Source: an uncultured Nitrosomonadales bacterium (GTDB taxonomy: Bacteria; Pseudomonadota; Gammaproteobacteria; Burkholderiales; Gallionellaceae). From it: a stretch of 64,000 nt of DNA. Numbering within the stretch: position 1 is the stretch's first letter; each line of letters starts with the position of its first letter. The notes beneath the pieces are model-generated. The model was not told the DNA's origin and did not search any database. It saw only the letters and a list, made by a program, of their open reading frames with translations. The stretch covers positions 1 through 64,000 of the forward strand of contig CAIWRI010000078.1 of assembly GCA_903915035.1 (NCBI GenBank), written 5' to 3'. Made by a program: the position numbers and the translations under genes. Below are positions 9,592 through 64,000 of this stretch, one piece after another.

Positions 9592-9604
9592 TAGATATCC
9601 TTTA

Positions 9605-11767
9605 TTAATTGGCTGAAATATCAGCCACTTCAAACGTTGCAATACCGGCACGAATCAGGCTGGTCGAAATACCTAGCGCCCAGGCCGCAGCGACTGCCGC
9701 CAGTACATTTTCAAGTTGCGATTGATTGCTTTCGTCAGCCGAAATGGGAACCGCAGCAAGCTTGAGCAGTGCAGTCTCTTCCAGCCCCTCGCAAAGTACA
9801 ATGCGGCCATTTTTAATCAGCACCGCCCGACCGCCTGTCCGTCGATGTTTGGTCACAGCGACCAACTCACTCTCAAGCGCGAAATAAATAACTTCGCCGT
9901 CACAATATCCGGCCATCCCTGCCACCAGCGGATCAGATCCATTGAGCACAGCAACTCCATCGGATAAGACCACATCCACCTGAGTGCGCAACACATTGCA
10001 GACCTGCTCGGTGCTTTCGATGTAAAACTCGCCAAAATGTTTGGCCGGATCAAGATTGGTGATAATACCGATCTGACAGCGATCGTAGCCCAAACCTTCC
10101 GACAGGATGGTTTCGATGCTGTTTTCAATGACTGCCGCATCCACTGAACGGTTCAATAACACTTTTTGTGCAGACGCCCAGTTCGCGCAATCTTTCTTGT
10201 CGGCAAGCCGTTTGTCAAAAAACAGCCCGTCACGACTGGCAAGTCCGGTATAAAACCCCGCCAGTTTTAATAATCTGGTGACGATACGTGCAACCTGCGC
10301 TTTTCCCCGCGTACCGCAGATACCGATGACAGGAATACGTCCTGTTTCCTTATCGGCAAACAGACTGTCGACGATGGCGCGGCCCACCGGGCGCGGCTCA
10401 CCTGACACAGGTTTAAGGTGCATCAGCAAACCCGGGCCGGCATTGATTTCAACGATAGCTCCGCCTTGTTCGGCCAGAGGGCGTGAAATATCTTCGGCGA
10501 CCAGATCAACGCCGGCAATATCAAGACCGACGATACGCACGGCAAGCGACACCATTTCCGCCACCTCGGGATGCACCAGATCGGTAACGTCAAAAGCGAC
10601 ATTGCCGTTGCGCTGAATCAAAATCACCGTACCGGCCGGCGGCACCGATTCCGCTGTATAACCCTGACGTTTTATTTCAAATTGGGCTGCGGTACTTTCA
10701 TTGATATTGACCCTGTCCATGGGAAACTCTTCAGCATCTCCCCTGCGCGGATCACTATTGATCTGTTCCTCAATCAGCAGATTGATCGACGAAATGCCAT
10801 TGGCAATCAGCGATACGCTCTCCCCGCGGGTTGCAGCAGCCAGTTTTCCGCCAACCACCAGCAACCGATGTTCATTGCCGCGGATAAAACGCTCGACGAT
10901 AACCTCGCTGCCTTGTTCATCCGCCAGCACAAAAGCGCGCTCTACTTCTTCACGTGTCATCAACTCGGTAGACACACCGCGCCCGTGGTTGCCGTCGGAC
11001 GGCTTGACGACCACCGGCAAACCGATGTCTTCCGCCGCATCCCACGCATCCTCCGGACTGTCAACGATGCGCCCTTCCGGCACCGGTACGCCGCAGGCCT
11101 GCAGCAGGTTTTTGGTCAAATCCTTATCCTGTGAAATACTCTCGGCGATCGCACTGGTCTGGTCAGTTTCTGCCGTCCAGATGCGGTGCGCATTTTTGCC
11201 ATAACCCAATTGCACCAGATTACCGCCGGTCAGGCGCATCGAGGGAATGCCTCTTTCAGTTGCTGCATCGACGATGCAAGCGGTGCTGGGTCCAAGACAG
11301 AGAGAATCGACCATCTCATTGAGTTTTAAAACGGTGGCAGCCACGTCAAAAGGTTCATCCTGCATCGCCGCGAGTATTAATTCGCGTGCGGCATGCAGCG
11401 CGGCACGAGAAACGGTTTCGTTGCGCGAACGCACAACCACCTTATAAACCCCGCGCACCGACGTTTCACGCGCCTTGCCAAAACCGCTCTGCATCCCCGC
11501 CAGATTTTGCAGTTCGATGGTGACATGTTCAAGAATATGTCCGGGCCAGGTGCCCTCGCGCAAACGTTGCAAAAATCCGCCGCGCTCACCAATGCCGCAG
11601 CGGTGCTCAATCAAGCTTGGCAACCAGGCTGTCAGACGCTCATAAAAACCGGGTATGGTATTGGAAGGAGAATCTTCCAGCACACCGATATCCAGCCAAA
11701 CCTCAAGCACAGGACGATAAGTCCAGATATTCGGACCTTGCAGCGGTAATATTTTGAGAAACTCCAT
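9605..11767 (-). CDS. Cyanophycin synthetase-like paralog (shorter, CphA'-type)
   Basis: MEFLKILPLQGPNIWTYRPVLEVWLDIG...VVVKPSDGNHGRGVS...; Mur-like P-loop region reads GICGTRGKAQVARIV rather than GTNGKTTT. Confidence 0.88.
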   Translation of the reverse strand: MEFLKILPLQGPNIWTYRPVLEVWLDIGVLEDSPSNTIPGFYERLTAWLPSLIEHRCGIGERGGFLQRLREGTWPGHILEHVTIELQNLAGMQSGFGKARETSVRGVYKVVVRSRNETVSRAALHAARELILAAMQDEPFDVAATVLKLNEMVDSLCLGPSTACIVDAATERGIPSMRLTGGNLVQLGYGKNAHRIWTAETDQTSAIAESISQDKDLTKNLLQACGVPVPEGRIVDSPEDAWDAAEDIGLPVVVKPSDGNHGRGVSTELMTREEVERAFVLADEQGSEVIVERFIRGNEHRLLVVGGKLAAATRGESVSLIANGISSINLLIEEQINSDPRRGDAEEFPMDRVNINESTAAQFEIKRQGYTAESVPPAGTVILIQRNGNVAFDVTDLVHPEVAEMVSLAVRIVGLDIAGVDLVAEDISRPLAEQGGAIVEINAGPGLLMHLKPVSGEPRPVGRAIVDSLFADKETGRIPVIGICGTRGKAQVARIVTRLLKLAGFYTGLASRDGLFFDKRLADKKDCANWASAQKVLLNRSVDAAVIENSIETILSEGLGYDRCQIGIITNLDPAKHFGEFYIESTEQVCNVLRTQVDVVLSDGVAVLNGSDPLVAGMAGYCDGEVIYFALESELVAVTKHRRTGGRAVLIKNGRIVLCEGLEETALLKLAAVPISADESNQSQLENVLAAVAAAWALGISTSLIRAGIATFEVADISAN

Positions 11768-49976: not shown

Positions 49977-52007
49977 CTATTCCACACCCAGCGCCTTGAA
50001 CACTGCATCCACGGGATCTGAGTAAAAACTGGTCTGGAATTTTGCAAACAGTTCGCCGGGTACGGTTGGAATATCGGTCACGCTCGACATCGGCAGCAAG
50101 ATACGTTTAGCACCGGCATCAAATGCCACCTGCAAACTTTCTGCCAGGCTGCGTGCCTGTGTAATGGTACCGCCCAGACTCATATCGCCCATCACAACCA
50201 TTTGGCTTTGCATCGATTTGCCCAGTGTTGCCGAACACAGTGCAATGAAGTTGGCGAGCGTCAATGTTTCTGGCGCGCCGGAATTTTGCAACTCGACCAA
50301 ATGTAGATGGTAATCATGGTCTCCGGGCTTGATCGCCCCGCTCACCCGTGACGCATGCGCTTTGAAATAGTCGAACGCCACACGCGATGGCTCTCGGGAA
50401 TGATTGCCGGAAATTGACAGCTTGCCATTGCCGGCGATAGACTGAATTTCCAGTCGATACACACCCGGCATACCATTGACACCGATACTGATGGTGTGCA
50501 ATGTCCCCGGGTTGGGTCTGCCGTCCGGAATCAGCGAACCACCGCCCTGTTCCGGAACCGATATAAAGCGTTCCTGCCCGTCTTCCAGATCAATGTAGCT
50601 GAAATGAACATCGTAAAACTCCATACCGCCGATTTTCTTGAGCTGTTCTTTTATCCGGCGACGTGTTTCAAGCGCATATTCCAGCGCACGGCGCACGCTC
50701 TCCTTGTCGTAAATACCATGAGGACAAGTTAATTTGAGCAGACCGGACACGGTACGACGCACCGCAATCGTATCGCGCTGATTCAGGTTATTACCTAGCT
50801 TGAACCACTTGTCGATGGCATCGGCAAAACTGCGCTTACGCATCTCGCGCATCCATTCCGCCAGATAGTCCACGATCATGCCGTACTGGTTAGTGAAAAA
50901 TTCCGGACGCATTTTGGGGATTTCCCAGCCGGGTACATAGGCATGAAACCGGTCAAAGAAGGCCGAATCAATCATCGCAGTCGGGAACGGTTCCAGCAGA
51001 TGACTGGTTTTAACCATCTGTTCAACTGACTGATTGATGTTACCGACGAACACCATGGACGCGCTGGCATTAATTGATTCACGCCCGCGCGAGAATGAGC
51101 CGCTAGCCATGTAGTCCTTCATGATCTGAATGCCGTCTTGTTCCTTAAAGTTGATACCCGCCACTTCATCGAACGCGACCACATCCCATAAGCCGACCAG
51201 ACCGATCTTGCGCGAACCCATGTTGTAGAACAGATTGGCGACCGTGGTTTGCCCGCCGGACACCAGAATACTGTTCGGGCTGATTTCCTTGTAGATATGA
51301 CTTTTACCGGTGCCACGCGGACCTAACTCACACAGATTGTAGTTGTTTTCCACCAGCGGAATCATGCGTGCCAGTAAATGCCATTTCACCCGCTGAGTAA
51401 AACAGGTAGGCTCCATTCCGGTTGAACGGAGCAGTCCGTCTATCCATTGTTCCCCGGTAAAGCCTTTACGTGCTTCGAACAACGCCTCCATATCCATGTT
51501 AGGCATTTGAATCGGCTTCAAATCCGATATCGAAAACGGTGACCCCTTCTGATTCTCCTCGAAATGATAGCGAATCGTCACGATGCACCAGATTCCGCCG
51601 ACCAGCAGCTTCTCAAAATTGCGCACATCCGAATCAGGAATCTCCGCATCCCGTATCGACAGGTTGGATAGCATCGCCTCGTAGGTATCGCGCTTCTCGT
51701 TCAGCTTGACCGTCACCTTGTCGATGACCTTATAGCTGCCACTCTCGCGGATCTTCGACTTTATCTTCTCCGCTTCATCCGGACGAACGTAGTTTTCCGC
51801 CAGCACCCGCTTCACATTGGTCAAACCTGCCTCGATGGTCGCCGGATCATCGGATGCACAATACATGCCGAGTAAATATTCCAGCACATAGACAGGCACA
51901 TTTGCGCCTTCCTTGATAAGCTTGGTCAGATCCTTGCGGACCACCTTGCCGGGTAGAAATTCGTTCAAAAGCGCATCAAGGCTTTTTTCCTGATTCGAAT
52001 CTATCAT
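49977..52007 (-). CDS. brxL: BREX type 1 Lon-like protease BrxL
   Basis: LGPRGTGKSHIYKEISPN; C-terminal Lon-like MSLGGTITQARSLAESLQVAFDAGAKRILLPMSSVTDIPTVP; 676 aa; adjacent to pglZ. Confidence 0.93.
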   Translation of the reverse strand: MIDSNQEKSLDALLNEFLPGKVVRKDLTKLIKEGANVPVYVLEYLLGMYCASDDPATIEAGLTNVKRVLAENYVRPDEAEKIKSKIRESGSYKVIDKVTVKLNEKRDTYEAMLSNLSIRDAEIPDSDVRNFEKLLVGGIWCIVTIRYHFEENQKGSPFSISDLKPIQMPNMDMEALFEARKGFTGEQWIDGLLRSTGMEPTCFTQRVKWHLLARMIPLVENNYNLCELGPRGTGKSHIYKEISPNSILVSGGQTTVANLFYNMGSRKIGLVGLWDVVAFDEVAGINFKEQDGIQIMKDYMASGSFSRGRESINASASMVFVGNINQSVEQMVKTSHLLEPFPTAMIDSAFFDRFHAYVPGWEIPKMRPEFFTNQYGMIVDYLAEWMREMRKRSFADAIDKWFKLGNNLNQRDTIAVRRTVSGLLKLTCPHGIYDKESVRRALEYALETRRRIKEQLKKIGGMEFYDVHFSYIDLEDGQERFISVPEQGGGSLIPDGRPNPGTLHTISIGVNGMPGVYRLEIQSIAGNGKLSISGNHSREPSRVAFDYFKAHASRVSGAIKPGDHDYHLHLVELQNSGAPETLTLANFIALCSATLGKSMQSQMVVMGDMSLGGTITQARSLAESLQVAFDAGAKRILLPMSSVTDIPTVPGELFAKFQTSFYSDPVDAVFKALGVE

Positions 52008-52016
52008 CGTCCGTTC

Positions 52017-54620
52017 CTAAAAATCATTTGAAAACGCCAGATCCACGCGCAGCGGCAGGCGCATCACTTCCACCTTGGTTTGCACATCACGCGCTATCAG
52101 GAAATAATCTTTGTTGCGGTCATAGCTTCCCGATCTCACGGTCAGAATCACGGTGCGTTTACGGCTATCCATCAAATCCGAATCGCTATCAAAGGTCAGC
52201 GATTGCTCGTCACTGATAAATTCCTCGCCATCGCGCAGAGAAATCTGCACCATGCGTGGCAGTATGCGTGCTGAAACAGCCTCATCCTGAATAAACTCGA
52301 ATCGTTGCCGGTTAGTCACCACTTTAATCGACGCACCTAGGATACTGAAGTTTACGAAGCGCGTCTTTGCCTTATCCGATTCACTGGCACGCAAGGTAAT
52401 CACCGGCACAACCACTTCCTGCGGCATCGCACTACCATGCACAAATCGCGCACCACCGGCAAAATGAAAACGTGCAGCCCCCTTGGGCAACCAGAAGTCC
52501 ATACTGCCGTCGCCGGGCTCAGTGCCCGCCGTGACCGATGTGTTTCCACACCAGGCTTTACTGTTCACGCCAATACCTTGACCTATCAAATAGCGTTTTT
52601 TAGCTTTCAATATGCCAGCAGGCTTTTCATCCAGCGTCGATTTATCTGCAACTTCTAGCGCCGACTCCTGATACATAAAGCCGTGATCTGCCGTCAGTAA
52701 AACAACCGAACCATTCAGGCTGTTGATGATGAAAGTAGCCAGCCTTCCCAACTCCTCCAGCGCATCATTAACCGCTGCAAAGGTCTTGGTCTCCGATGCC
52801 TGCTTATCACCGATCATGTCAATCAGGTCGTGGTAGATATACACCAGTTGCTGGTCACGAACGAATTCACGCCCCTTGTCTTTACCCAGTGCCAGCAAAT
52901 CTTCGGCTTTAATCGCCACGCCGCCATATTTCTCAAGATGAGCATTACGTTGTTCGCTGGTCGAAACGATAACGCCATCTGCACTTAAATCGCAATTGCC
53001 ATTCAGTTTATATGCCAGCTTGTTATGAGGCAGCAGCGATGCCATACCCAACGCAGTGTAACTTGGCAGCACGCCGAGCATGGCCGACAAGGAAGCCTTC
53101 AGACGGTTGCGGCTATTGATGATTCGCGTCAACTCTTCGGCGGCCTCGTAACGGAATGCGTCCGAAATCACAACGAACACCCGCTTTGCGCCACCGTCCA
53201 GCACGGGTTTAACATGCTTTACATAGAAGTCAGGCTGATTGATTAGCTCTTCAACTTTCCACTTTCCTAACAGACCATTTTCACCTTCCAGCACTTTGCA
53301 CCATGCGGATGTCAGTTGCGGAATAAACCAGCCGGAATAAGCACTTTCAATCCGTTCAATCAATTCGTGCAGCACAGCCCAGCCCATCGGTTCAACAGCG
53401 GAAGCAGCAAAATTGAACTGACGATACAGTTGGTCAAAACGAAAAAGTTCAGTTTGATACGCCGTCAATCCTTCGGTTGCATTGGCAAAACTGAATCCTG
53501 CCTCATGTGCGGCCTTTAGTTCAAAGAAGCCGTGTGCCGCTTCCAGCGCATCATAGCTCGCAGCCAGTGCGCGGGTAATATCGTTATCCTGAGCCAGCAG
53601 GCGATTAGCCCAATGACCATCGCGGCGGCGCGCCATCAACGAGCGTACTACATTCGATTCAGCGCCCGAGGCGGCGATAATTTGATCCTTGATATGCTTG
53701 ATGATGCGCTGCTCAACCACCGCGAAGGTCATCACATCAGAGAGTGCCGCGCCTGACAGACTACCCAGCATCCCGGCAATATCCAATTCTTTGGCTATCT
53801 GCTCAGACAAGGCGTTATAGCTGGCAAAATGCGCCATATCTGAACGCCACCGGGCAACGAATACCGCTGCATTCGCTGTTTTATTGGGCAAAACGAAATG
53901 AGCGAGTTGACCGGGGCAATTGCCGGACAATGAGCGTGTAAAATCCGTCACCAGCAAGTGAATCAATAAGTCCGGCAATGAAGGCGTGGATTGGACGTAG
54001 CCAAACTCACACTCGATATTTGACCAGAGGGCCAATTCCAGCTCATTACCCTGAATCTCCAACCATGGCCGGGACTCAATATTCAAGTCAGCCATGCCTT
54101 CCACCACCAACCCTGAAAACAAACGAAGCAATATCGCTGTCAGTTCAGGTTGATCCGCACGCGCCAGCACCGCCAGCATCTTGCGGTCGATATCTTCTGC
54201 CGTATCGGTTGGCACGACCAGTCGCTTGAGTTTCTCAACACGATCTTTAGCGCGCAGAAATTTGGCACGCAGCTTCAAATGCGCTCGCAATGTTTGCGAT
54301 GTCAACCCCAAGTCTTCCAGCAGAATGGATGCGGCATCGGCACTGAACGATTTGCTGCGCAGGCGAATGTCCAGCAGCCAATCTTTGGTGAGTTCAGGTT
54401 CCGGCTTATTGCTGTAGAGCAGCCATTTTTGCTTTGGTGCGTGTTCGATATCCAGCTTAACTTTGAGCGCAGGAAGATTATCAGTGCGCACTACCTGTAC
54501 GCCAGGCAATGGAAGGCTATCTACGACAGATGAAAATTCGGCATCGACATCGTGCCAAAACACCACGGCGTTATTAGCATACAGTGCAGAAAGGGAGTCT
54601 ACGATTCGTTGAGTGCTCAA
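52017..54620 (-). CDS. pglZ: BREX phosphatase PglZ
   Basis: RVFVVISDAFRYEAAEELTR and NGSVVLLTADHGFMYQESALEV; 867 aa. Confidence 0.93.
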   Translation of the reverse strand: MSTQRIVDSLSALYANNAVVFWHDVDAEFSSVVDSLPLPGVQVVRTDNLPALKVKLDIEHAPKQKWLLYSNKPEPELTKDWLLDIRLRSKSFSADAASILLEDLGLTSQTLRAHLKLRAKFLRAKDRVEKLKRLVVPTDTAEDIDRKMLAVLARADQPELTAILLRLFSGLVVEGMADLNIESRPWLEIQGNELELALWSNIECEFGYVQSTPSLPDLLIHLLVTDFTRSLSGNCPGQLAHFVLPNKTANAAVFVARWRSDMAHFASYNALSEQIAKELDIAGMLGSLSGAALSDVMTFAVVEQRIIKHIKDQIIAASGAESNVVRSLMARRRDGHWANRLLAQDNDITRALAASYDALEAAHGFFELKAAHEAGFSFANATEGLTAYQTELFRFDQLYRQFNFAASAVEPMGWAVLHELIERIESAYSGWFIPQLTSAWCKVLEGENGLLGKWKVEELINQPDFYVKHVKPVLDGGAKRVFVVISDAFRYEAAEELTRIINSRNRLKASLSAMLGVLPSYTALGMASLLPHNKLAYKLNGNCDLSADGVIVSTSEQRNAHLEKYGGVAIKAEDLLALGKDKGREFVRDQQLVYIYHDLIDMIGDKQASETKTFAAVNDALEELGRLATFIINSLNGSVVLLTADHGFMYQESALEVADKSTLDEKPAGILKAKKRYLIGQGIGVNSKAWCGNTSVTAGTEPGDGSMDFWLPKGAARFHFAGGARFVHGSAMPQEVVVPVITLRASESDKAKTRFVNFSILGASIKVVTNRQRFEFIQDEAVSARILPRMVQISLRDGEEFISDEQSLTFDSDSDLMDSRKRTVILTVRSGSYDRNKDYFLIARDVQTKVEVMRLPLRVDLAFSNDF

Positions 54621-54725: not shown

Positions 54726-55304
54726 TTAAGAGCCAACCAATTTGATAAATTCATCATGAAACAGCTTCACGCTTGGGCAAGCTGGATGTTCAGCAGCACT
54801 GGCAATCGTAAAGCCATAATGTTTGCACATTTTTTTTGCGAATCCCGGCTTGTTACTACCCGGGCCACGTCTTTCTTTCTCTTTAGCTAGTTCCTTCAAT
54901 CGGTCCCAGGGCATCCCGACAGTATCTTCTGGCAAGTCTTCCTGCACATCCGGTAGTTTCAGCCACGATTGCAAAGCTTTACTATCCGCCAGAAACCAAG
55001 CTTCAATGGCCTTCACAGCAACAAAAATGAGATTGGTATGTTCCGTGCCAATGCGTTCCGTCACCACTGCAACACTTGATGCATTTTCAAGGTCAGTCAA
55101 AATCACAATATGATCCGGGCTTGAACGCTTTAGTTGTATTACCATCGGAATAATATTCTGTGGTAAAAGATTACCACCTCCTTTAGCATCAATCACGGGC
55201 GAGCAAATTTCGATGCCTTGGCTTTTGGCCCAGCTTTGAAAAGCGGGAGATTCCACTACAATTTTTTCAGTGTCACCCTCCACGATAAAACCTACTTTTA
55301 CCAT
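54726..55304 (-). CDS. TOPRIM/DUF4276-like protein, partner of the upstream ATPase (cassette 1)
   Basis: VKVGFIVEGDTEKIVVE...HIVILTDLENASS...KAIEAWFLADSKAL. Confidence 0.65.
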   Translation of the reverse strand: MVKVGFIVEGDTEKIVVESPAFQSWAKSQGIEICSPVIDAKGGGNLLPQNIIPMVIQLKRSSPDHIVILTDLENASSVAVVTERIGTEHTNLIFVAVKAIEAWFLADSKALQSWLKLPDVQEDLPEDTVGMPWDRLKELAKEKERRGPGSNKPGFAKKMCKHYGFTIASAAEHPACPSVKLFHDEFIKLVGS

Positions 55305-56410
55305 GGCAAACCACCATCAAAGAAGTTCATCAGCCAAGCAGTATCAAGGTTTAAATTACCAAGATCACCACTATGCTGTGCGGCATTTTTAACCACTGTC
55401 TTACCATCCTCTTTATTGACCAACCAAAGCTCCTCTTTGGTGGAAGCTCGAACCAAAGACTCGCTGTGCGTTGTCACTAATACAGGATGCTCTGAGCTGG
55501 CATTATCCCGCATCAACCGTACAAGTTCCGCAATGGCCTTCGGATGAATACCACGCTCAGGCTCTTCAATCAGCGTCAACCCATATCCCTTGGCACGACT
55601 TAGCACAGCAGCCATGATGCACAGCGCATAGATTGTTCCATCTGAAATCAAATTTGCCGGAAAATGTGCCTTTGTACCCTCCTCCTTAAACTTGATGATT
55701 GTTCTTCCATCCAAGCGTTGCTGTTCTGTGCCAACACTTTCCATTCCGGGAACCAGCAACTCCATCCAATCTATAATTTCAGAACGGATTTCCGTATTTT
55801 TTTCCAATGCAGCCAGGATGGTCGCCACATTATGACCAAACGGACTCAATTCACTACCATCGGTACTTGAAGCATCCGGTTCCTTTGCGCCCAAGGGATC
55901 GAACCTAAATACGCGAATATTGATCAAGTATTGGTAAAGTGCTGACTGGGGTAATAACATCAAGCCTGACATTTCCGAAGGAAAGTTCGGTACTTGGACC
56001 AAGTTTCCATCAACCGCTTGCACCTGAGGAGGCTCTCCTTTCTTTCTAAGTAATACGGGTTTGCCATCAATTAACAACTTTTCCTCAAGCGATGGCATGG
56101 TATCCATCTCATGAACCTTCAAGGTGTAGTCAATACGTTCATCCGTCATGCTCGCAACAATAGAAAACTCAAATGTGCGGGCGTTATTCCCCCGGAGTTT
56201 GTAGCAGTGCAACTGAGGATATCCATTAAACTTACGTATGGCTGCACTTGCTCCAGATTGAATAACTAGACTAACGAAGGCTAGTGAATCCGCTAAATTA
56301 CTTTTTCCAGCCCCATTGGGGCCAGCCAGAACGCTATATGGTGAAAGTTGCGCAAGGGATAAATTGGCGATACTTTTAAAACCGCTGATCTTGATCTGCT
56401 TAATTTTCAT
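55298..56410 (-). CDS. RecF/OLD-like AAA ATPase (cassette 1)
   Basis: IKISGFKSIANL, LAGPNGAGKSNLADSLAFVS, LTLIEEPERGIHPKAI, VLVTTHSESLV. Confidence 0.88.
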   Translation of the reverse strand: MKIKQIKISGFKSIANLSLAQLSPYSVLAGPNGAGKSNLADSLAFVSLVIQSGASAAIRKFNGYPQLHCYKLRGNNARTFEFSIVASMTDERIDYTLKVHEMDTMPSLEEKLLIDGKPVLLRKKGEPPQVQAVDGNLVQVPNFPSEMSGLMLLPQSALYQYLINIRVFRFDPLGAKEPDASSTDGSELSPFGHNVATILAALEKNTEIRSEIIDWMELLVPGMESVGTEQQRLDGRTIIKFKEEGTKAHFPANLISDGTIYALCIMAAVLSRAKGYGLTLIEEPERGIHPKAIAELVRLMRDNASSEHPVLVTTHSESLVRASTKEELWLVNKEDGKTVVKNAAQHSGDLGNLNLDTAWLMNFFDGGLPW

Positions 56411-56565
56411 TCTTCTTCCTTTCCGCCCGTCACCGCTTTTACATCAGATAATAAGTCGCCAAACTTGCCGTAATTTACCTTAACGCCATCGTCCAGATCC
56501 AGTTGGATGCGCATGTCGGCATAGTGACGGAGCTGTTCGTCGAAGTTGGTCTGTGATTGACTCAT
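56407..56565 (-). CDS. Standalone duplicate of the PglX C-terminal tail (tail copy 1)
   Basis: MSQSQTNFDEQLRHYADMRIQLDLDDGVKVNYGKFGDLLSDVKAVTGGKEEE*; ATG overlaps the previous gene stop (ATGA) and its stop overlaps the next ATG (ATGA). Confidence 0.8.
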   Translation of the reverse strand: MSQSQTNFDEQLRHYADMRIQLDLDDGVKVNYGKFGDLLSDVKAVTGGKEEE

Positions 56566-57380
56566 GCCAGCAACCCCATTGCCTGCCATAGAACATTCAG
56601 GTCAGCGGGCACCGTACGTGTTCGCAAAATGGCAAGGCGACGCTCCTTTGCCGGCTTTTGGCCCAGCAGACGATTCAACACCTGATGCACGACCTGCGGA
56701 TAAAAGTCTTTCGCATAAAGCCATTGGGCACAGAGTTTGCTCACGTCTTCAGAAGCCAGCTTTGCTTCCAAAGCATGCACACCATTCAAAACCGCATCGG
56801 CATCCAGTGTTCCATGCCACTCCTTGAATTTGACTCTAAGTGCAGCATCGTCCGGCATGGGCGGACTGCCAAGCACCGCATCAGGGAAACCCATGTTTCG
56901 AAGCTGTCGCCACAGCGGACGAACACCATGCCAAAGCGCTGCATGCCTCACCCAACCCTGCAGATCAGTCAATAACTCAAGACGAAACTGTGCCTCGCCA
57001 CCTGCAATCTTTGCCCGTTGCTTTTCCGGGAAGGCGGCCCACAGTTCCGGCGGATCAATCAGATAACTCTCAAGACAAAAGCGCGGCAAGACCGACAGGT
57101 TAGGACACGCAGCCTGTTTCTCTACAATATCTGCCTCAGTCCATTCATCACGGTCAACCAAGCCCTGCCAATGTGGCTCCTTCATTAACATCTTGACGAC
57201 ATCAGACTTGTTGCCAGCGGCGACCAGAAGCCATGTCTTTTCCCATTCAGGAAACTTGCGCCCCAGGAAAATGCGAAACGCATCGACATCATCGGTTCCC
57301 TCAACCAGAAGGACACGCAGGCCGGCTTTTCCAATGAACTGCGTTTTGATCTGCTTGATGCGCTCCTCCAGCGCACTCAT
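56562..57380 (-). CDS. DUF4435/TOPRIM-like protein, AriB-like (cassette 2)
   Basis: GLRVLLVEGTDDVDAFRIFLGRKF...VLPRFCLESYLIDPPELW. Confidence 0.65.
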   Translation of the reverse strand: MSALEERIKQIKTQFIGKAGLRVLLVEGTDDVDAFRIFLGRKFPEWEKTWLLVAAGNKSDVVKMLMKEPHWQGLVDRDEWTEADIVEKQAACPNLSVLPRFCLESYLIDPPELWAAFPEKQRAKIAGGEAQFRLELLTDLQGWVRHAALWHGVRPLWRQLRNMGFPDAVLGSPPMPDDAALRVKFKEWHGTLDADAVLNGVHALEAKLASEDVSKLCAQWLYAKDFYPQVVHQVLNRLLGQKPAKERRLAILRTRTVPADLNVLWQAMGLLA

Positions 57381-58432
57381 GTGACGCCCCCAAGCTCAAT
57401 ACGCTTACCGGATGCCTCGTAACGCTGCCATATGTCAGGCTGATGGGACGTAATGATAAGTTGCCCGCCAATGTCCGCCACCAACTTTTCAAGACTGGAC
57501 AACAAGCCATTCACCAAGGAAGGGTGCAGATACAAATCCGGCTCGTCAATCAGAATCACCGCACCTTTTTCCGCCCAGCGTGCCAGCAGGTACAACAAGA
57601 TCAACACTTGGTGTTCTCCCGCGCTCAAATCATCCAGTCCATGCGATTGACCACGCTTATTTTTTAACTTCACACTTAAACGGTTTTCACCGGGTTGAAT
57701 GTCCGGGTCTATCTCTTTTCCTGACAAAAAACCATTCAGCAAGCGAACAATCTCGTGGTACTTGTGCAACTGTGTGGTTTTGAGCGTAATGAGGTAGGCT
57801 TCTAACTGATCCTTCCAATCTTCACTCGCCAGGTACTTGGGCAACCAACGCCTGCCTGGTAACTCAGCTGTGTGATCGCCTACATTACGCCGTGCAGCAA
57901 CCCAGCGACGTTCCTCAGCATCCAAAAACACCACGTTAGGCACATCCACCTTATCGAATGACAAGATCATTTTTTTGCGCGCATCGGCCCACTCTTGAAC
58001 CCACGGTTCTGATGGAAGAAAAACTTCCCGTTTTGGGTTGCCCGGCTTACCTGTGCGTGCTACACCTTCACCCAGCCATTGCACATCGGTGTGCTGGGAA
58101 CGCATGGACTCACACCAAGCCAAGTCACCAAAAATCAACCCTATAACTTGACCATCGCTTGGCACTCCACTCAACACCACGGCACATCCACCCCAGCGTT
58201 GCAGCCACTCGCGAGCCACATGACTTTTAGGAAGTGACTTACGCTGATCCAACCAAAAGCCCAATGCGTCCCAAAGCATTGCCACTGCGCGCAATACGGT
58301 GGATTTACCGCAACCATTGGGGCCAGACAGCAAAGCGCGGGCTTCAACACTGTCGTCCCAATCGTTGACGAAGTTGATACAGTTGTCACCAAACGGCCCA
58401 ACATCCTTGAAATACAAAGAGTTAATTTTCAT
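57377..58432 (-). CDS. AAA ATPase, AriA-like (cassette 2)
   Basis: LLSGPNGCGKSTVLRAVAMLWDALG, LDDLSAGEHQVLILLYLLARWAEKGAVILIDEPDLYLHPSL, LIITSHQPDIW. Confidence 0.85.
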   Translation of the reverse strand: MKINSLYFKDVGPFGDNCINFVNDWDDSVEARALLSGPNGCGKSTVLRAVAMLWDALGFWLDQRKSLPKSHVAREWLQRWGGCAVVLSGVPSDGQVIGLIFGDLAWCESMRSQHTDVQWLGEGVARTGKPGNPKREVFLPSEPWVQEWADARKKMILSFDKVDVPNVVFLDAEERRWVAARRNVGDHTAELPGRRWLPKYLASEDWKDQLEAYLITLKTTQLHKYHEIVRLLNGFLSGKEIDPDIQPGENRLSVKLKNKRGQSHGLDDLSAGEHQVLILLYLLARWAEKGAVILIDEPDLYLHPSLVNGLLSSLEKLVADIGGQLIITSHQPDIWQRYEASGKRIELGGVT

Positions 58433-58641
58433 TCTTCTTCCTTTCCGCCCGTCACAGCTTTTACATCAGATAATAAGTCACCAAACTTACCATAATTCAC
58501 CTTCACACCATCATCAAGATCGAGCTGGATGCGCATGTCGGCATAGTGGCGAAGTTTTTCGTCATAGGCTAACAGCTCGACGTGTTTTTTGCGCATTGTC
58601 GCACTATTGAATATGCTGCCTGAAGTAGCCCATTTATTCAT
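58429..58641 (-). CDS. Standalone duplicate of the PglX C-terminal tail (tail copy 2)
   Basis: MNKWATSGSIFNSATMRKKHVELLAYDEKLRHYADMRIQLDLDDGVKVNYGKFGDLLSDVKAVTGGKEEE*; stop overlaps the next ATG. Confidence 0.8.
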   Translation of the reverse strand: MNKWATSGSIFNSATMRKKHVELLAYDEKLRHYADMRIQLDLDDGVKVNYGKFGDLLSDVKAVTGGKEEE

Positions 58642-58649
58642 GGCATGGA

Positions 58650-59390
58650 TCAATGAATGACTTCACTTAATGCACGCTCCAACTCCAGTTTAAATGCCTT
58701 GAAACTTGGCATAAACGAGGCTCTCGCTTCATCTATCGGGTTCTCGTCCAACCACTCACAGAGTTCATTGGCGGATTTATGTGCGCCGAATGCCGCATCA
58801 AGTTTCTTCTTGGGATGATTGGCAGACTCTACGTTGCCCGGTAACTCTTCGAGTTTGCGGCAATTTTGATAAGGTTTATTTTGTGCGGCACACAATAACC
58901 AAGCTTCCGAAGTCGGCTTTGGTAGCATTGGTACACCTCTGGAAAATTCAGCCCTGTTAAATCCATTCACCATAGCGTCCCACTTCGTCTCCCAAATTCC
59001 AGACATGGTAGATCGCGTTCCATCGCAGTCACGAAACAGCACGGCAAGAACCTGATCTTCACGTTCAGATTCAATTTGCAAGGCAATATCCGCAAGCATC
59101 CATGCGTTGATGTAAAAATATCCAGTTTCTTGAGCTCGTTTTTTACCAACGAAGGAAAAACTTCGATGCTCTTTCTTGCGTGCTTCCTCTCGCTCTTCTA
59201 ATGCGGCCTTACCAACATATTGATATCCACCCGGTATAGAACACAACGAGTAATCCAAACGAGATTCAAGCATCTGATCCAAGAGCACAGTCATAGGGCC
59301 AATCTGCAAGTCTCCATCCGAACAATTGCCCTGAGCATTATTACATTGCCCCAAATCGGTTGGGCCTTCCCCACTCAACACGACAATCAT
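58650..59390 (-). CDS. DUF4276/TOPRIM-like protein (cassette 3)
   Basis: MIVVLSGEGPTDLGQ...VLAVLFRDCDGTRS...PKPTSEAWLLCAAQ. Confidence 0.6.
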   Translation of the reverse strand: MIVVLSGEGPTDLGQCNNAQGNCSDGDLQIGPMTVLLDQMLESRLDYSLCSIPGGYQYVGKAALEEREEARKKEHRSFSFVGKKRAQETGYFYINAWMLADIALQIESEREDQVLAVLFRDCDGTRSTMSGIWETKWDAMVNGFNRAEFSRGVPMLPKPTSEAWLLCAAQNKPYQNCRKLEELPGNVESANHPKKKLDAAFGAHKSANELCEWLDENPIDEARASFMPSFKAFKLELERALSEVIH

Positions 59391-60559
59391 TCCTTGGCCT
59401 CTGCCTCGGCACGTTGCCTTTCGGCGAAATCATCCGCGTCATCCAGCGCGATACATTCCTCGGTAAGCTGTACCAGGTCGGTATCAACAAATGCCTCACC
59501 TGCGCCCATAAATTTGAGCTTCTTCCCAATGTTCGGAATCTCAAAGAACCGGCGTATGCGGCTTAAGCCAGCGGTATTCTTATAGACGTACTGTACAGAC
59601 TTCCGCGCTTCATCATCTTCCAAATAATTCAAAATCATCGGACTATGTGTCGTCACAATAATTTGCTGTTGAGCATTCACTAATATATCAACCAACTTTT
59701 CGATTATTTCAGGATTGATGCCATTCTCGATCTCGTCCAGCAAAACTAGCGGATGATCAGATTCTGCCTGAGCCAAAATCGCTAATATTCGCAACACCCC
59801 ATCGCTCAAGTGCGTTGCTTCCGTTTCCAGAGTTTGTTCTCCGAACTGTTCAACCACCATGAGTTTTTTCCAACCAGCCCGCATACTTGCAACCCTGAAG
59901 TCAATCAGATTTGGGTAAAACAACTTTAATAACACCAGTAAGTGAGCTTTCGCATCTCCTTTTATGTTATGTAGGAAACCAGAAAGTTTTTCCCCACCCG
60001 CACCGATGTCCTTATCATCTGTTCTTGCACGCTTGCGCAGCAAATGCGGAGAAAGTAACTCCAACGAACGGGTACGTCTGAGTACATCACGAAATTCCAG
60101 AATTGATGGCGGAAGCTCACTATCCTTGAGTTGAGAAATAATTGAGCCTTGAAAAATAAATGAAATTGGCTGTTTTCGTCCTTCAGTGTGGTACTCGTGC
60201 CCACGGGAAGTAAAAATAAGTTCATTATCTAATTGGACTCTTTCCCACGAACAGCGCAAGTCAGAGCGGTTAAAGCCAGCATGCCAATTCAGAAGTTGTC
60301 CCGCCTGAGTACGATATTGGACTCGTATGAGTATATTGCTTGCCTTGAAAAGTTTGCAGTTCAAATCCTGTGCTGTCCAGCCACGGGAATCCAGCCAACT
60401 CAATACATTGCCAGTCATTAACTGAGAAATGAAATCGATCCCTTGGAGTATCGTGCTTTTACCCACCCCATTCATCCCGATAAAACAATTGAATTTACTG
60501 AGTGGAAAAGCCAGATTTCCAGCAGACTTAAAATTGGTTATGAATATATTTTCAATCAT
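59387..60559 (-). CDS. RecF/OLD-like AAA ATPase (cassette 3)
   Basis: IFITNFKSAGNLAFPL, CFIGMNGVGKSTILQGID, PLVLLDEIENGINPEII, IIVTTHSPMILNYL. Confidence 0.87.
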   Translation of the reverse strand: MIENIFITNFKSAGNLAFPLSKFNCFIGMNGVGKSTILQGIDFISQLMTGNVLSWLDSRGWTAQDLNCKLFKASNILIRVQYRTQAGQLLNWHAGFNRSDLRCSWERVQLDNELIFTSRGHEYHTEGRKQPISFIFQGSIISQLKDSELPPSILEFRDVLRRTRSLELLSPHLLRKRARTDDKDIGAGGEKLSGFLHNIKGDAKAHLLVLLKLFYPNLIDFRVASMRAGWKKLMVVEQFGEQTLETEATHLSDGVLRILAILAQAESDHPLVLLDEIENGINPEIIEKLVDILVNAQQQIIVTTHSPMILNYLEDDEARKSVQYVYKNTAGLSRIRRFFEIPNIGKKLKFMGAGEAFVDTDLVQLTEECIALDDADDFAERQRAEAEAKE

Positions 60560-63500
60560 CAGAACTACCTCCAGTCACTGCTTTTACATCAGATAATAAG
60601 TCGCCAAACTTGCCGTAGTTCACCTTCACGCCATCGTCCAGATCCAGTTGGATGCGCATGTCGGCATAGTGGCGGAGTTTTTCGTCGTAGGCTAACAGCT
60701 CAACATGTTTCTTGCGCAGCACTTCGATTTGTTTGTTGATCTTGTTACGGGCAGCGGTCACAGTGGCGGCGTCACGATCCTTGGTCAGCATCTCGATACG
60801 TGACTGGATTTTACTGGTCAGCGGCACGACATATTCGGCGCGCATCCGCGCAAGGGTGCCTTCGTGATAACGATGCAGATAGACCAGTGCCTGAAACGCT
60901 CCTTGCTTACCGCTGGAGAACAGCCAGTAGATCGGGCGTTTCTTGTACATTTGCAGGTGATTCTTGTAAAAGCTGGTCGCGAGATAACGGCGGATAGTTT
61001 CTTCCAATGTTTCGTTGCCCTTCATACCCAGACTTTCCGCCAACCACTGTAGATTAGTGGCAAGTAGTGAGTGGTTAGTGGTCAGTGGCGAGTGGTCAGA
61101 AAGACAGTGGTCAGTGGTCAGTGGCGAGTGGCCAGAAAGACAGTGGTCACTAATCACTGTTTCTCCACTAGTCACTGAACACTGGTCACTAATCACTGCT
61201 TCTCCACTGGTCACTGAACACTGGTCACTAATCACTGTTTCTCCACTGTTCACTGTTTCTCCACTGTTCACTGTTTCTCCACTAATCACTGTTTCTCCAC
61301 TGTCCACTGCCTTGTCTCCCCATACGGCCAGCAGGAATTCGCTGATACGATTAGCGGCATCATCCTCAAACCAGAACTCGTCGGTAAGCGGCACGATACC
61401 ATCGGCGTCGGCGGGGAACAGATTTTGTAGGGGCGAATTCATTCGCCCTTGGGCGGATAAATCCGCCCCTACCCCATTGTAGATTTCCCAGAACCGTTCA
61501 TTTCCCGAATGCGCGTAAATCAACCCCGGCCTATCCAGTCGATACCGCCCCATCATGCAACCGATAGCATAGGAGATCAGGCGCTGGCAATCTTTCTCGC
61601 GGTCGGCACGAGCGAGGGTGATCTGTTCTTCGGGAACTTCGGGGGACAGTTCGTCTTGCAGACCGTAGGCTTCGATGAAAATGCGGTTGTTTTGTTCTTC
61701 CAATGTTTTCGTTATGCTAATATTGTCATTTAACACTAATAGCCAACTATTCCACGTCGCCTCAATACTTTTGCATTTTATGGGGGTTGCCACCAAAGGG
61801 TTATAAATATAATCCCATGAAGTTTCTACCCAATCCCAGTCTTGTTTCGCTAAATCAACAATTGTTGAAGTATTGGATTCAATTTCTTCAAAATAGGGTT
61901 CCAGTAAAGTTAGATTAAATGGCAATGCTGCGATATTACCTGGCTGAAAATTTAAAGTAGGGTTTATAGAACACAAAAATTCAAACGTCGGTTTTGCAGA
62001 CAAAAATGCCAAAACGAGATTGTGAAATTTTTCATCAGGAAATGCTGATGAGCCACCATTATCAAACAAAAAACCTTTTTCGCACTTTCGAGCACTAAAG
62101 AATGCTGAAGTAACTGCTGACCAAGTTACTGACGGCTTGAAATACTTGTCCCTATTAATTATTCGTCCGGTAGAGTTAACCTTCGAGCCGGACACTAAAT
62201 CTATATAGTCACATATTGTTTTTCCATTATTTTCATAATTAATGACATACATATTGTTGCCATACCATTTTTTAAAACCACCACCTTTATTGTATGGAAA
62301 AAACTTCTTATTACTTGCAAGTGCTTCCGGTGCAGTCCCATAACCAAATCCTATTTTCTGGATAGAAACCTCAGACCAATTTCGAACAAATAATTCATTC
62401 TTTGTTGTGTTCATCCCCGCACAAGGTCGAGTGAAGGCACCTAAAGAAGAGCTTTTTTCAAATATGTCACGAACCGCATGCCCTAACCAATATGCCACAG
62501 GACTTCCCGGAATTTTTTTAAAATCATCCGGCTTCACTATTTTGAGACGATTATTTTGAACGGGAAATTTTAAAGGAACCCCCTCTTCGTTTACATCATC
62601 ATTTTTACAGTATGAAAAGCTACCCTCATAAGCATCAATGTGCTTATTCCAAAATATGGTAGCAGCGGTACCAAATGCAATGCCCATTACCCCATTGCCC
62701 ATATGTACCATACAATAGAGCGTTTTTTTACCTAGTAAATTATTCCGCATCACTTCAAACGACGACAAGAACATCCAGCTCTGCATCGTTACCATGCTAT
62801 TCAAACCTGTTGCTTTGCACCAACCAAAGCCACGTTCGATAAACATAGCAAACAAATCAGCCTTACTATTTGGAAATCGCTCCCCTGAAAAACTCTTTAA
62901 CTCAGGGTTCATCCCCTTACCGCCCATATACGGCGGATTCGCTACAACAGCATCAAACTGCATTCCCAGAACTTTCGCCTGCCCAACCAGCGGCAACAAC
63001 TGTTGTACTGCCGACTCGGAGAGCAGATCGCCGTTCTTGATAGCCAGCTGCAAGCTCTCCGCCATCGTCGCCAGTTTTACATTCAACGCCTGCGGGATTT
63101 GTATCAACGAGCCGAAGGTCTTTGCATGAGTGAAGGTATCGATCAGCATGCGTACGGCTTGAGCTTCCTCAGACACGGCACGGACGGAGCTGTTTGATTT
63201 CAATGCTGGTGACTCGTCAAAGCTCATTTGCGGACGACTGCCGGGAAAGAGATCGTCATCCCCGAAGCCACTCGTTAACGCCTTTGCGGACAAGGGAAAT
63301 AAAGCCTGAACGATTGCATCCACATCCAGCCCACGACTCTCCTGCAAAGCCAGCACATTGAGAGTTGGCGGATTATCGAGCAGACGGCGATCATCGGCAC
63401 GAGCCTTCATCAGCAATGCAAATCCAGCCAGTTGCGCGGCGCGATCATCGATATCCAGACCGAAAAGATTCTTTTCCAGAATCAGACGGGGAATGTCGCG

Positions 63501-64000
63501 TAAACGATAGCCGCGTTCCAGATAGATACCCTTCAGTACCTCATATCCTTCAACCAAAATGTGACCGGAGCCGCAGGCAGGATCGAGCATCGTGATAGTT
63601 TCAGGATTCAGACTGCCGCCATCTTCACCCATGCGAGTCTGAATAAGCGCATCCAACTGAGCCTGAACTTCCGGCGTTTGCTCGGCAGGTTCTATGTAAT
63701 AAGCCCATTCACTCTTCAGCGTTGAAGCAGGATTCGCCATCAACCACAGGCGACCGACGCTGTTTTGCACAAGATATTTAACAATCCAGTTAGGGGTAAA
63801 TAGCTGGGTGGCGGCGGGAATATCCTCGCTCTTAACCACTTTGCCGATCACTTCATCCTTCTTCTCACTGATGTAAAACTGGTACAGCCAACCGATAATC
63901 TCGACTTCCTGCCAGTCTTCTTCGGGAATAGCAGCTACCAGCTTGGCGATGACTGAATCAGTGCGCAACAGATTGTCCGGCAACAGCAACTCGGTTTCAT
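60552..64000 (-). CDS. pglX: BREX adenine-specific DNA methyltransferase PglX (5' part beyond the window)
   Basis: LDPACGSGHILVEGYEVL and VVANPPYMGGKGMN; frame remains open to the window edge past the ORF-track TTG. Confidence 0.93.
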   Translation of the reverse strand, partial: ETELLLPDNLLRTDSVIAKLVAAIPEEDWQEVEIIGWLYQFYISEKKDEVIGKVVKSEDIPAATQLFTPNWIVKYLVQNSVGRLWLMANPASTLKSEWAYYIEPAEQTPEVQAQLDALIQTRMGEDGGSLNPETITMLDPACGSGHILVEGYEVLKGIYLERGYRLRDIPRLILEKNLFGLDIDDRAAQLAGFALLMKARADDRRLLDNPPTLNVLALQESRGLDVDAIVQALFPLSAKALTSGFGDDDLFPGSRPQMSFDESPALKSNSSVRAVSEEAQAVRMLIDTFTHAKTFGSLIQIPQALNVKLATMAESLQLAIKNGDLLSESAVQQLLPLVGQAKVLGMQFDAVVANPPYMGGKGMNPELKSFSGERFPNSKADLFAMFIERGFGWCKATGLNSMVTMQSWMFLSSFEVMRNNLLGKKTLYCMVHMGNGVMGIAFGTAATIFWNKHIDAYEGSFSYCKNDDVNEEGVPLKFPVQNNRLKIVKPDDFKKIPGSPVAYWLGHAVRDIFEKSSSLGAFTRPCAGMNTTKNELFVRNWSEVSIQKIGFGYGTAPEALASNKKFFPYNKGGGFKKWYGNNMYVINYENNGKTICDYIDLVSGSKVNSTGRIINRDKYFKPSVTWSAVTSAFFSARKCEKGFLFDNGGSSAFPDEKFHNLVLAFLSAKPTFEFLCSINPTLNFQPGNIAALPFNLTLLEPYFEEIESNTSTIVDLAKQDWDWVETSWDYIYNPLVATPIKCKSIEATWNSWLLVLNDNISITKTLEEQNNRIFIEAYGLQDELSPEVPEEQITLARADREKDCQRLISYAIGCMMGRYRLDRPGLIYAHSGNERFWEIYNGVGADLSAQGRMNSPLQNLFPADADGIVPLTDEFWFEDDAANRISEFLLAVWGDKAVDSGETVISGETVNSGETVNSGETVISDQCSVTSGEAVISDQCSVTSGETVISDHCLSGHSPLTTDHCLSDHSPLTTNHSLLATNLQWLAESLGMKGNETLEETIRRYLATSFYKNHLQMYKKRPIYWLFSSGKQGAFQALVYLHRYHEGTLARMRAEYVVPLTSKIQSRIEMLTKDRDAATVTAARNKINKQIEVLRKKHVELLAYDEKLRHYADMRIQLDLDDGVKVNYGKFGDLLSDVKAVTGGSSDD
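61053..61311. repeat. In-frame variable short repeat block (18-, 36- and 39-nt units) inside pglX
   Basis: AGTGGTCAGTGGCGAGTGGTCAGAAAGAC... and CACTAATCACTG(T/C)TTCTCCACT... units; encodes GETVNS, DHCLSxHSPLTT, SDQCSVTSGEAVI repeats. Confidence 0.9.
61427..61472. repeat. 46-bp double-hairpin palindromic repeat inserted in-frame in pglX
   Basis: GTAGGGGCGAATTCATTCGCCCTTGGGCGGATAAATCCGCCCCTAC; encodes GVGADLSAQGRMNSPL. Confidence 0.85.

Follow-up and report, generated by a model that had tools for sequence, protein, structure and literature searches.

The window, a stretch of 64,000 nucleotides from an uncultured Nitrosomonadales bacterium (GCA_903915035.1, contig CAIWRI010000078.1), encodes pglX and two short open frames that resemble its 3′ end, here called tail 1 and tail 2. 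Both tails are probably cut-off ends of older pglX copies that were stranded when cassettes were inserted behind pglX, and that were kept mainly as carriers of ribosome-binding sites. The sequences show the anatomy of the locus, the recurrence of tails in other genomes, the cassette-specific ends of pglX, a remnant of a donor pglZ in one relative, and decay of the tails elsewhere.

Organization of the BREX locus

The locus is a type 1 BREX operon with the order pglX–[PDC-M25AB]–tail 2–[PARIS-like AriAB]–tail 1–[HEC-01AB]–pglZ–brxL. Based on gene content, we predict an anti-phage locus in which three ATPase/nuclease accessory cassettes are stacked between pglX and pglZ. The type 1 assignment rests on pglX, type A pglZ and brxL, which occur in one operon and have scores far above the cut-offs of NF033452, TIGR02687 and TIGR02653; brxA, brxB and brxC would fall past the window end at 64000. 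The features are as follows.

60552–63989, reverse strand: pglX, BREX-1 adenine methyltransferase (NCBIfam NF033452, E = 0; PADLOC PglX)
60552–60716, reverse strand: pglX 3′ end with homology to the stranded tails, RKKHVEL...SSDD and stop (repeat search, codon comparison)
60568–60572, reverse strand: GGAGG, Shine-Dalgarno-like site for the M25A ATPase, within the final pglX codons (sequence; enrichment before M25A-type starts)
59387–60559, reverse strand: cassette 3 gene A, OLD/ABC-type ATPase PDC-M25A (PADLOC PDLC04541, E = 7e-159)
58650–59390, reverse strand: cassette 3 gene B, PDC-M25B (PADLOC, E = 6e-98)
58429–58653, reverse strand: tail 2 open frame (pglX homology at 58429–58593)
58439–58443, reverse strand: AAGGA, Shine-Dalgarno-like site for the AriA-like ATPase, within the KEEE codons of tail 2 (sequence)
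57377–58432, reverse strand: cassette 2 gene A, AriA/PARIS-like ATPase whose start overlaps the tail 2 stop (ATGA) (PADLOC AriAB, E = 6e-27)
56562–57380, reverse strand: cassette 2 gene B, AriB-like, TOPRIM/DUF4435 type (PADLOC AriB, E = 6e-12)
56407–56565, reverse strand: open frame of tail 1, its start overlapping the AriB-like stop (ATGA; homology to pglX from about 56544)
56417–56421, reverse strand: AAGGA, Shine-Dalgarno-like site for the HEC-01A ATPase, within the KEEE codons of tail 1 (sequence)
55298–56410, reverse strand: cassette 1 gene A, HEC-01A ATPase whose start overlaps the tail 1 stop (ATGA) (PADLOC, E = 4e-161)
54726–55304, reverse strand: cassette 1 gene B, HEC-01B, DUF4276 (PADLOC, E = 7e-85; Pfam PF14103 just below cut-off)
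52017–54620, reverse strand: pglZ, BREX-1 type A (TIGR02687, E = 1e-296)
49977–52007, reverse strand: brxL (TIGR02653, E = 0)

The pglX frame continues past the window edge to give a 1327 aa open frame in the genome, with the C-terminus ...AVTGGSSDD. Its stop is overlapped over 8 nt by the ATG of PDC-M25A (ATGATTGA), and the identical overlap was found in other genomes. Tail 2 starts with a TTG that overlaps the M25B stop (alternative ATG codons are at 58641 and 58596), and a longer tail 1 frame starting at 56589 is possible. Both members of the PDC-M25 pair are present in cassette 3 and both members of the HEC-01 pair in cassette 1. In cassette 2, sequence matches place an AriA-type ATPase next to an AriB-type TOPRIM nuclease, the PARIS arrangement; a Pfam search with gene B gave no match, thus we regard the cassette as a divergent PARIS member. 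PARIS is triggered by Ocr-like anti-restriction proteins, and AriB cleaves tRNA. The interval between pglX and pglZ is at least 600 nt in 57 of the 68 cases surveyed.

Three diverged copies of the pglX end

A repeat search of the window returned one family with three 171-nt copies (56403–56573, 58425–58595 and 60548–60718), the outer ones being 76% and 85% identical to the middle one. They share a block of 36 codons (RHYADM...AVTGG), over which the 108 nt differ at 8 positions between tail 1 and pglX, 13 between tail 2 and pglX, and 12 between the tails. None of these differences changes an amino acid in any pair. The corresponding NG86 dS values are 0.42, 0.93 and 0.80, with dN of 0, and these supply, for the window copies, the codon alignment and dN/dS check proposed in an earlier note on this DNA. 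That note had reported about 15 synonymous differences over roughly 140 nt between tail 2 and pglX. Our recount over the 50 alignable codons (RKKHVEL...VTGG) gives 18 of 150 nt, all synonymous, and the coordinates hold. Its description of tail 1 as differing from pglX synonymously plus a Lys-to-Gln change is also borne out, the latter (DEKL/DEQL) lying just 5′ of the shared block; the DEQL form is present in a full-length pglX as well (L075). The final four residues are SSDD in pglX and KEEE in both tails, varying with the gene downstream.

Each of the three copies has another of them as its nearest relative, alone or tied, and the next closest pair is tail 2 and L098, with 13 nt differences. 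The tree has the topology (L098,(tail 2,(tail 1,pglX))), with support of 99/75 for the window trio and 100/88 for tail 1 plus pglX, although a tree built on 108 nt resolves little beyond this trio. Because the copies are mutual nearest relatives, the source alleles of the tails would belong to one narrow clade. Partial gene conversion or a shared local ancestor could also produce this kinship.

Among about 100 pglX ends compared, no full-length end lies nearer to either tail than that of the resident pglX, and for tail 2 L098 ties with it. The source alleles of the tails were not found full-length in this set, where the closest (L098 and L128) are 13–17 nt off over 108 nt, and the pieces 5′ of tail 1 (about 17 nt) and tail 2 (about 56 nt) gave no convincing match to a donor gene. 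The earlier suggestion that the tails came from diverged pglX alleles stands in modified form: each tail would be the displaced 3′ end of an allele that formerly preceded its cassette.

The same copies bear on whether the pglX end was duplicated in place, or by an insertion with a long target duplication, and then drifted. Mutual nearest kinship fits such an origin, and parts of the restriction-modification literature discuss long target duplications in which, as here, defence genes lie beside a repeated piece of a neighbouring gene. However, neutral drift in place should yield amino acid changes, and for about 12 tail-branch changes the probability of seeing none is about 1e-7. Synonymous divergence is large (dS 0.4–0.9), and the tails share a cassette-matched KEEE where pglX has SSDD, whereas a target duplication would copy one end. 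Rather than repeats of one sequence, the BREX tails are diverged alleles whose ends match their cassettes and whose 5′ breakpoints are ragged. In this set, no relative was found whose stranded tail equals its pglX end down to the last codons. We consider duplication in place very unlikely, in agreement with the earlier view that these are not recent tandem duplications.

Ongoing gene conversion between pglX and the tails could keep the proteins alike, with synonymous changes supplied by import of diverged alleles. In addition to the mutual kinship, the three copies share a 22-nt block (ACTTATTATCTGATGTAAAAGC) without differences, and the likeness to pglX is in the middle of the segment for tail 1 and at the 3′ end for tail 2. 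The pattern is nonetheless explicable without conversion: four changes unique to pglX and three unique to tail 1 persist, and 108 nt is too short to tell conversion from chance. We view this process as rather unlikely.

Stranded tails in other genomes

Stranded pglX tails were identified in about 14 further genomes (L007, L027, L032, L033, L041, L043, L046, L079, L117–L121 and L128). In other species, the cassettes directly follow full-length pglX: an AriA-like cassette with the same start/stop overlaps in L007, L015, L018, L034 and L055, HEC-01A with the same overlap in L027, and M25A with the same overlap in L011, L017, L035, L036, L082 and L098. Cassette order varies among genomes, as in L027 (pglX-HEC01-tail-M25-...-AriAB). 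The 3′ ends of tails are usually intact, reaching the native stop and fused to the start of the following cassette, and the 5′ breakpoints are ragged and differ from case to case. Between M25B and the tail, L128 carries the first ~47 nt of a pglZ; this stretch is identical to the L022/L091 pglZ at 41 of 47 positions and differs from the L128 pglZ itself. Judged by its sequence, this would be the predicted join of a donor pglX-M25AB-pglZ fragment with the resident pglX tail. In L033, the tail is joined in frame to a truncated upstream gene.

The recurrence of tails, the occurrence of cassettes behind full-length pglX, the ragged breakpoints and the pglZ remnant in L128 together argue that the tails are displaced ends of former pglX alleles rather than duplications made in place. 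Breakpoints also bear on whether cassettes entered by site-specific integration, using the 3′ end of pglX as their target and the tail as an attachment site. Integrases insert at tRNA genes and restore their 3′ end at the attachment site, and here too the target is always a 3′ end that is restored. But the 5′ breakpoint varies among independent cases, fragments of other genes are left at junctions, and the pglX–pglZ interval of the window contains no recognisable integrase or transposase, making this explanation extremely improbable.

In collections of E. coli and plasmid sequences, pglX ends are frequent, but the matches inspected include no stranded tail; ETEC1746 has two matches, with an ordinary locus at the one inspected. 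Viral contigs gave three weak or edge matches, none useful.

Selection or decay of the tails

The earlier note had offered purifying selection on expressed mini-proteins as one reason for synonymous-only divergence. The tails might be small functional proteins, for example soluble C-terminal pieces of PglX with affinity for DNA, for BREX partners or for phage DNA mimics like Ocr. Both window tails are intact and in frame, with start/stop overlaps at their 5′ and 3′ ends, and 36 codons are without amino acid change. The tail is a fragment of a solved PglX domain (9EWZ, 8C45), and alignment places it in the C-terminal domain near residues reported to contact DNA or Ocr (PMC11842806, PMC11341690); Ocr is sensed by PARIS (PMC12839542).

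Synonymous-only divergence is, however, equally expected from changes that arose in full-length pglX. Full-length pairs 5–16 nt apart have on average 11.1 synonymous and 2.8 nonsynonymous changes in the segment, and 28 of 247 pairs have no nonsynonymous change; thus, no selection on a peptide is needed. Changes that can be placed on the tails' own branches amount to only about 5 (about 3 for tail 1 and about 2 for tail 2), and tail lengths and N-termini are arbitrary. At near-invariant residues, stranded tails in BREX loci have changed more than full-length ends (odds ratio 6, p = 0.0013) with a much larger excess for tails outside BREX (odds ratio 41, p = 6e-12), in statistics that omit L030 and count each tail as independent even though a few have common ancestry. 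Such changes in other genomes include F22C, G34E, V17A, an L-to-P and G14W; none occurs in the two window tails, on which weak protein-level selection may act. Other stranded tails show an in-frame 14-codon deletion, a frameshift, or loss down to a ribosome-binding-site stub; only AAGGAxxGA-ATG is left in L041, L043 and before the second AriA-like gene of L027. Frameshifts or nonsynonymous changes in standalone tails had been named beforehand as the sign of neutral scars, and since both occur in other genomes the coding content of the tails looks scar-like. We conclude that a mini-protein function is unlikely. L030 was rejected as a stranded tail; it directly follows a long pglX frame and is probably a frameshifted pglX.

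Ribosome-binding sites and a proposed model for cassette gain

GGAGG is present in the last pglX codons at 9 of 12 M25A-type starts compared to 12 of 84 others (p = 3e-5), and AAGGA at 4 of 5 AriA/HEC-01A-type starts compared to 10 of 84 (p = 0.002), with cassette classes in these counts set partly from the overlap sequence itself. Bridging open frames occur in 10 of 13 cases (6.6 expected, p = 0.017); as this is barely above chance, the sequences are only suggestive of selection for translational relay through the tails.

In the model that we propose, the first gene of each cassette, starting within the last pglX codons, would borrow their ribosome-binding site, and a newly arriving cassette would carry its own pglX end. 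One flank of the incoming DNA would recombine homologously within pglX and the other would join illegitimately inside the resident pglX 3′ end. The incoming end would complete the resident pglX body, and the old 3′ end would shift downstream, still attached to the old cassette. After two such rounds, tail 1 would lie before HEC-01AB and tail 2 before AriAB. A relative with the window locus in its pre-insertion form was not found, and the order of events is therefore our inference. Synonymous differences would mainly predate stranding, having been gained in full-length pglX alleles under strong constraint. What is retained after stranding would be a translation-initiation leader (Shine-Dalgarno site, start/stop overlap and bridging open frame) rather than a functional peptide, and translation may re-initiate at cassette starts. 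Tail survival would be due mainly to the ribosome-binding site that each provides for the next cassette.

Comparison with known systems

By analogy, the array would work like the sequential displacement arrays of T6SS and Rhs loci. Sequential displacement was described for T6SS effector-immunity modules of Vibrio cholerae, citing Rhs arrays with an orphaned 3′ region (Kirchberger et al. 2017, PMC5361080). As in T6SS, new modules of the BREX array would come in at the 3′ portion of a conserved gene, moving older ones downstream and setting back the 3′ end of the gene that stood there before; for T6SS, the proposed mechanism is illegitimate recombination facilitated by homology (PMC5361080). Older modules lie downstream, each after a fragment of the anchor gene, in the window, L007, L027 and L128, and illegitimate junctions with a gene remnant are seen in L128 and L033. 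The T6SS arrays differ in that displacement affects the effector gene itself and leaves orphan immunity genes (PMC5361080), whereas the BREX anchor is a methylase, complete two-gene cassettes stay, and the conserved pglX end is stranded along with the cassette's ribosome-binding site.

OLD-ABC ATPase/TOPRIM (PARIS-like) backup effectors occur in BREX loci (NAR 2026, PMC12839542), as ATPase-nuclease pairs within the operon that are of the same gene class as the three window cassettes. The portions of that survey considered here hold no mention of stranded pglX tails, cassette stacking or a ribosome-binding site in the pglX end. The StySA BREX locus of Salmonella includes, as here, a pair of ATPase and DUF4435 genes, with no mention of a stranded pglX tail in the corresponding part of the report (PMC9009780).

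Implications

On balance, we favour the view that defence cassettes in type 1 BREX generally dock at the conserved 3′ end of pglX, that the last codons of this gene double as a cassette start signal, that tails record past insertions, and that cassettes outside BREX keep a decayed pglX tail. Cassettes would then tend to travel with a piece of pglX because its last codons double as their translation start signal. The model accounts for the gathering of several backup defence systems behind one methylase in BREX operons, and stranded tails would be a sequence mark for tracing each cassette gain, usable in systematic cassette searches. It also leads us to expect that the ribosome-binding site of the following gene partly dictates the C-terminal residues of PglX, a point relevant to moving or engineering BREX genes.

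Tails next to PDC-M25 and PDC-M38 type genes outside BREX (L123–L125 and L127) indicate that these genes formerly sat behind pglX. The neighbours of the tails in L123 and L124 were considered as a type I restriction locus and rejected as such; Pfam identifies an RND efflux pump and an outer-membrane factor (L123).

Organization of the pglX-pglZ interval

The latter half of a type 1 BREX operon lies on the minus strand of the window and comprises pglX, three two-gene cassettes, pglZ and brxL. Each cassette is a different ATPase/nuclease pair, and two stranded tails (short copies of the pglX 3' end, detached from the gene body) separate them:

60552-63989, minus: pglX, frame open past the window end
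adjoining pglX, minus: PDC-M25AB (cassette 3)
between cassettes 3 and 2, minus: tail 2
middle cassette, minus: AriAB (PARIS)-like pair (cassette 2)
between cassettes 2 and 1, minus: tail 1
adjoining pglZ, minus: HEC-01AB (cassette 1)

Counted across the whole genome, the pglX end is present in three copies only; a weak fourth match (45% identity) lies within a 674-aa frame on a different contig. The pglX coding frame includes tandem short repeats (61056-61310), a low-complexity stretch of SGETVISDQCSVT-like units immediately ahead of the conserved C-terminal domain. Also in frame is a palindromic element, GTAGGGGCGAATTCATTCGCCCTTGGGCGGATAAATCCGCCCCTAC (61428-61473), which resembles small dispersed repeats of environmental proteobacteria.

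Divergence of the tails

Over the 36 codons common to all three copies, there are 8 nucleotide differences between tail 1 and pglX, 13 between tail 2 and pglX, and 12 between the two tails, with no amino-acid change in any pair (dS 0.42-0.93, dN 0). An earlier note, based on the sequence alone, described tail 2 as differing from pglX only synonymously, and this holds over all 50 alignable codons (18 differences in 150 nt). The Lys/Gln difference that it reported for tail 1 is present immediately upstream of the shared codons; the Gln form also occurs in the full-length pglX of relative L075. The final four residues are SSDD in pglX and KEEE in both tails.

Two origins had been proposed for this pattern: import from diverged pglX alleles, or purifying selection on the tails as proteins. 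Synonymous-only divergence is not surprising in this part of pglX. When full-length pglX ends differing by 5-16 nt are compared (247 pairs; means of 11.1 synonymous and 2.8 nonsynonymous differences), 28 pairs have no nonsynonymous difference. Under unconstrained divergence of the tails in place, the probability that all ~12 changes on their branches are synonymous is ~1e-7; thus, the changes arose under constraint, and full-length pglX genes are the simplest place for this, as in the first proposal.

Selection on the tails themselves fares less well elsewhere. Near-invariant positions, defined from 86 full-length pglX ends, are altered in 7/208 cells in BREX stranded tails vs 9/1548 in full-length genes (odds ratio 6, p=0.0013), and in 11/57 in tails outside BREX (odds ratio 41, p=6e-12). 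Some tails also carry frameshifts or deletions, the kind of decay that the earlier note said would mark neutral scars. An open frame bridges the upstream stop and the tail in 10 of 13 cases, slightly above chance (6.6 expected, p=0.017), a weak excess that would fit selection to keep the array translated without a break. With L098 as outgroup, three changes are private to tail 1, two to tail 2, and five fall on the stem to tail 1 and pglX. For the window itself, the private changes are too few to decide whether the tails were stranded recently or have stayed under selection. Neither full-length donor alleles of the tails nor a less stacked, ancestral relative of the locus was found among the relatives searched, and the bases immediately 5' of each window tail had no clear match.

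Stranded tails in other genomes

Genome contigs and ~1,480 whole genomes yielded pglX ends from many beta- and gammaproteobacteria. Stranded tails occur in L007, L027, L032, L033, L041, L043, L046, L079, L117-L121 and L128, where they separate cassettes or lie elsewhere in the pglX-pglZ interval. Their 5' breakpoint varies by case, and they usually continue to the native stop and following gene. Of 68 environmental BREX loci in which a single contig holds both pglX and pglZ, 57 have an interval of 600 nt or more between them (median 1.9 kb, longest 8 kb); therefore, it is a general accessory-gene site. Cassette order varies among genomes. Published work describes OLD-ATPase/TOPRIM pairs in BREX loci (PMC12839542) and an ATPase and DUF4435 pair in Salmonella StySA BREX (PMC9009780).

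Four genomes of one family (L117-L120) share a 128-aa gene (with a PIN domain in L117) followed by the same 53-aa stranded tail; a divergent pglX precedes this gene in three of the four stretches. The genes beyond the tail differ, as if genes had been exchanged there. In the BREX loci of two Enterobacter plasmids (L109, L110), a C-terminal pglX frame immediately precedes pglZ and has an IS5-family element close by on its upstream side, so that pglX appears cut.

Retention and formation of the tails

Each cassette's start codon and predicted ribosome-binding site lie within the last pglX codons, which would explain why tails remain. In other species the same cassettes immediately follow full-length pglX with an identical overlap (ATGA where the gene is AriA-like or HEC-01A, ATGATTRA where it is M25A). 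GGAGG occurs in 9/12 pglX ends overlapping an M25A-type start vs 12/84 others (p=3e-5), and AAGGA in 4/5 overlapping an AriA/HEC-01A-type start vs 10/84 others (p=0.002). The KEEE or KDEE residues are the predicted ribosome-binding site read as protein (AAGGAxGAAGAATG). A stub with this type of site is all that remains of the tail in L027 (second AriA-like gene), L041 and L043.

The clearest junction is in L128 (genome G276), ordered pglX, M25A, M25B, tail, two further defence genes and, further on, pglZ. The gap between M25B and the tail consists of the opening ~47 nt of a pglZ gene, identical at 41/47 positions to the L022/L091 pglZ start; L128's own pglZ starts differently. This matches the expectation if a donor piece, pglX-M25AB-pglZ, had been joined by chance into the 3' end of a resident pglX. 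An in-frame deletion has since removed 14 codons from this tail. In L033, a truncated upstream gene is fused in frame with the stranded tail.

The pattern matches 'sequential displacement' of Vibrio T6SS effector-immunity modules, in which the former effector gene's 3' end is shifted back and homology-facilitated illegitimate recombination was proposed (PMC5361080). The open-licence literature searched gave no account of stranded pglX tails, nor of a ribosome-binding site placed within the end of pglX.

Cassettes outside BREX

A decayed pglX tail still precedes the same kinds of cassette outside BREX, directly upstream of PDC-M25-type ATPase/partner pairs in three stretches and ahead of an M38A-type ATPase and its neighbouring gene in a fourth:

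L123, 6738-8790: M25AB pair
L124, 6911-8957: pair with M25A gene
L127, ~8870-10881, minus: pair with M25A gene
L125, 11057-11317, minus: pglX remnant with internal deletion, 29 residues joined to KVNYGKFGDLL, ahead of the M38A-type ATPase

No pglX gene was found in the L123, L124 or L127 stretches. The neighbours of M25AB in L123 are RND efflux genes, and a glycosyltransferase gene lies close to the L125 remnant. L126 and L127 have the same tail and upstream genes; the M25AB pair of L127 is absent from L126, and the sequences break immediately after the ATPase start.
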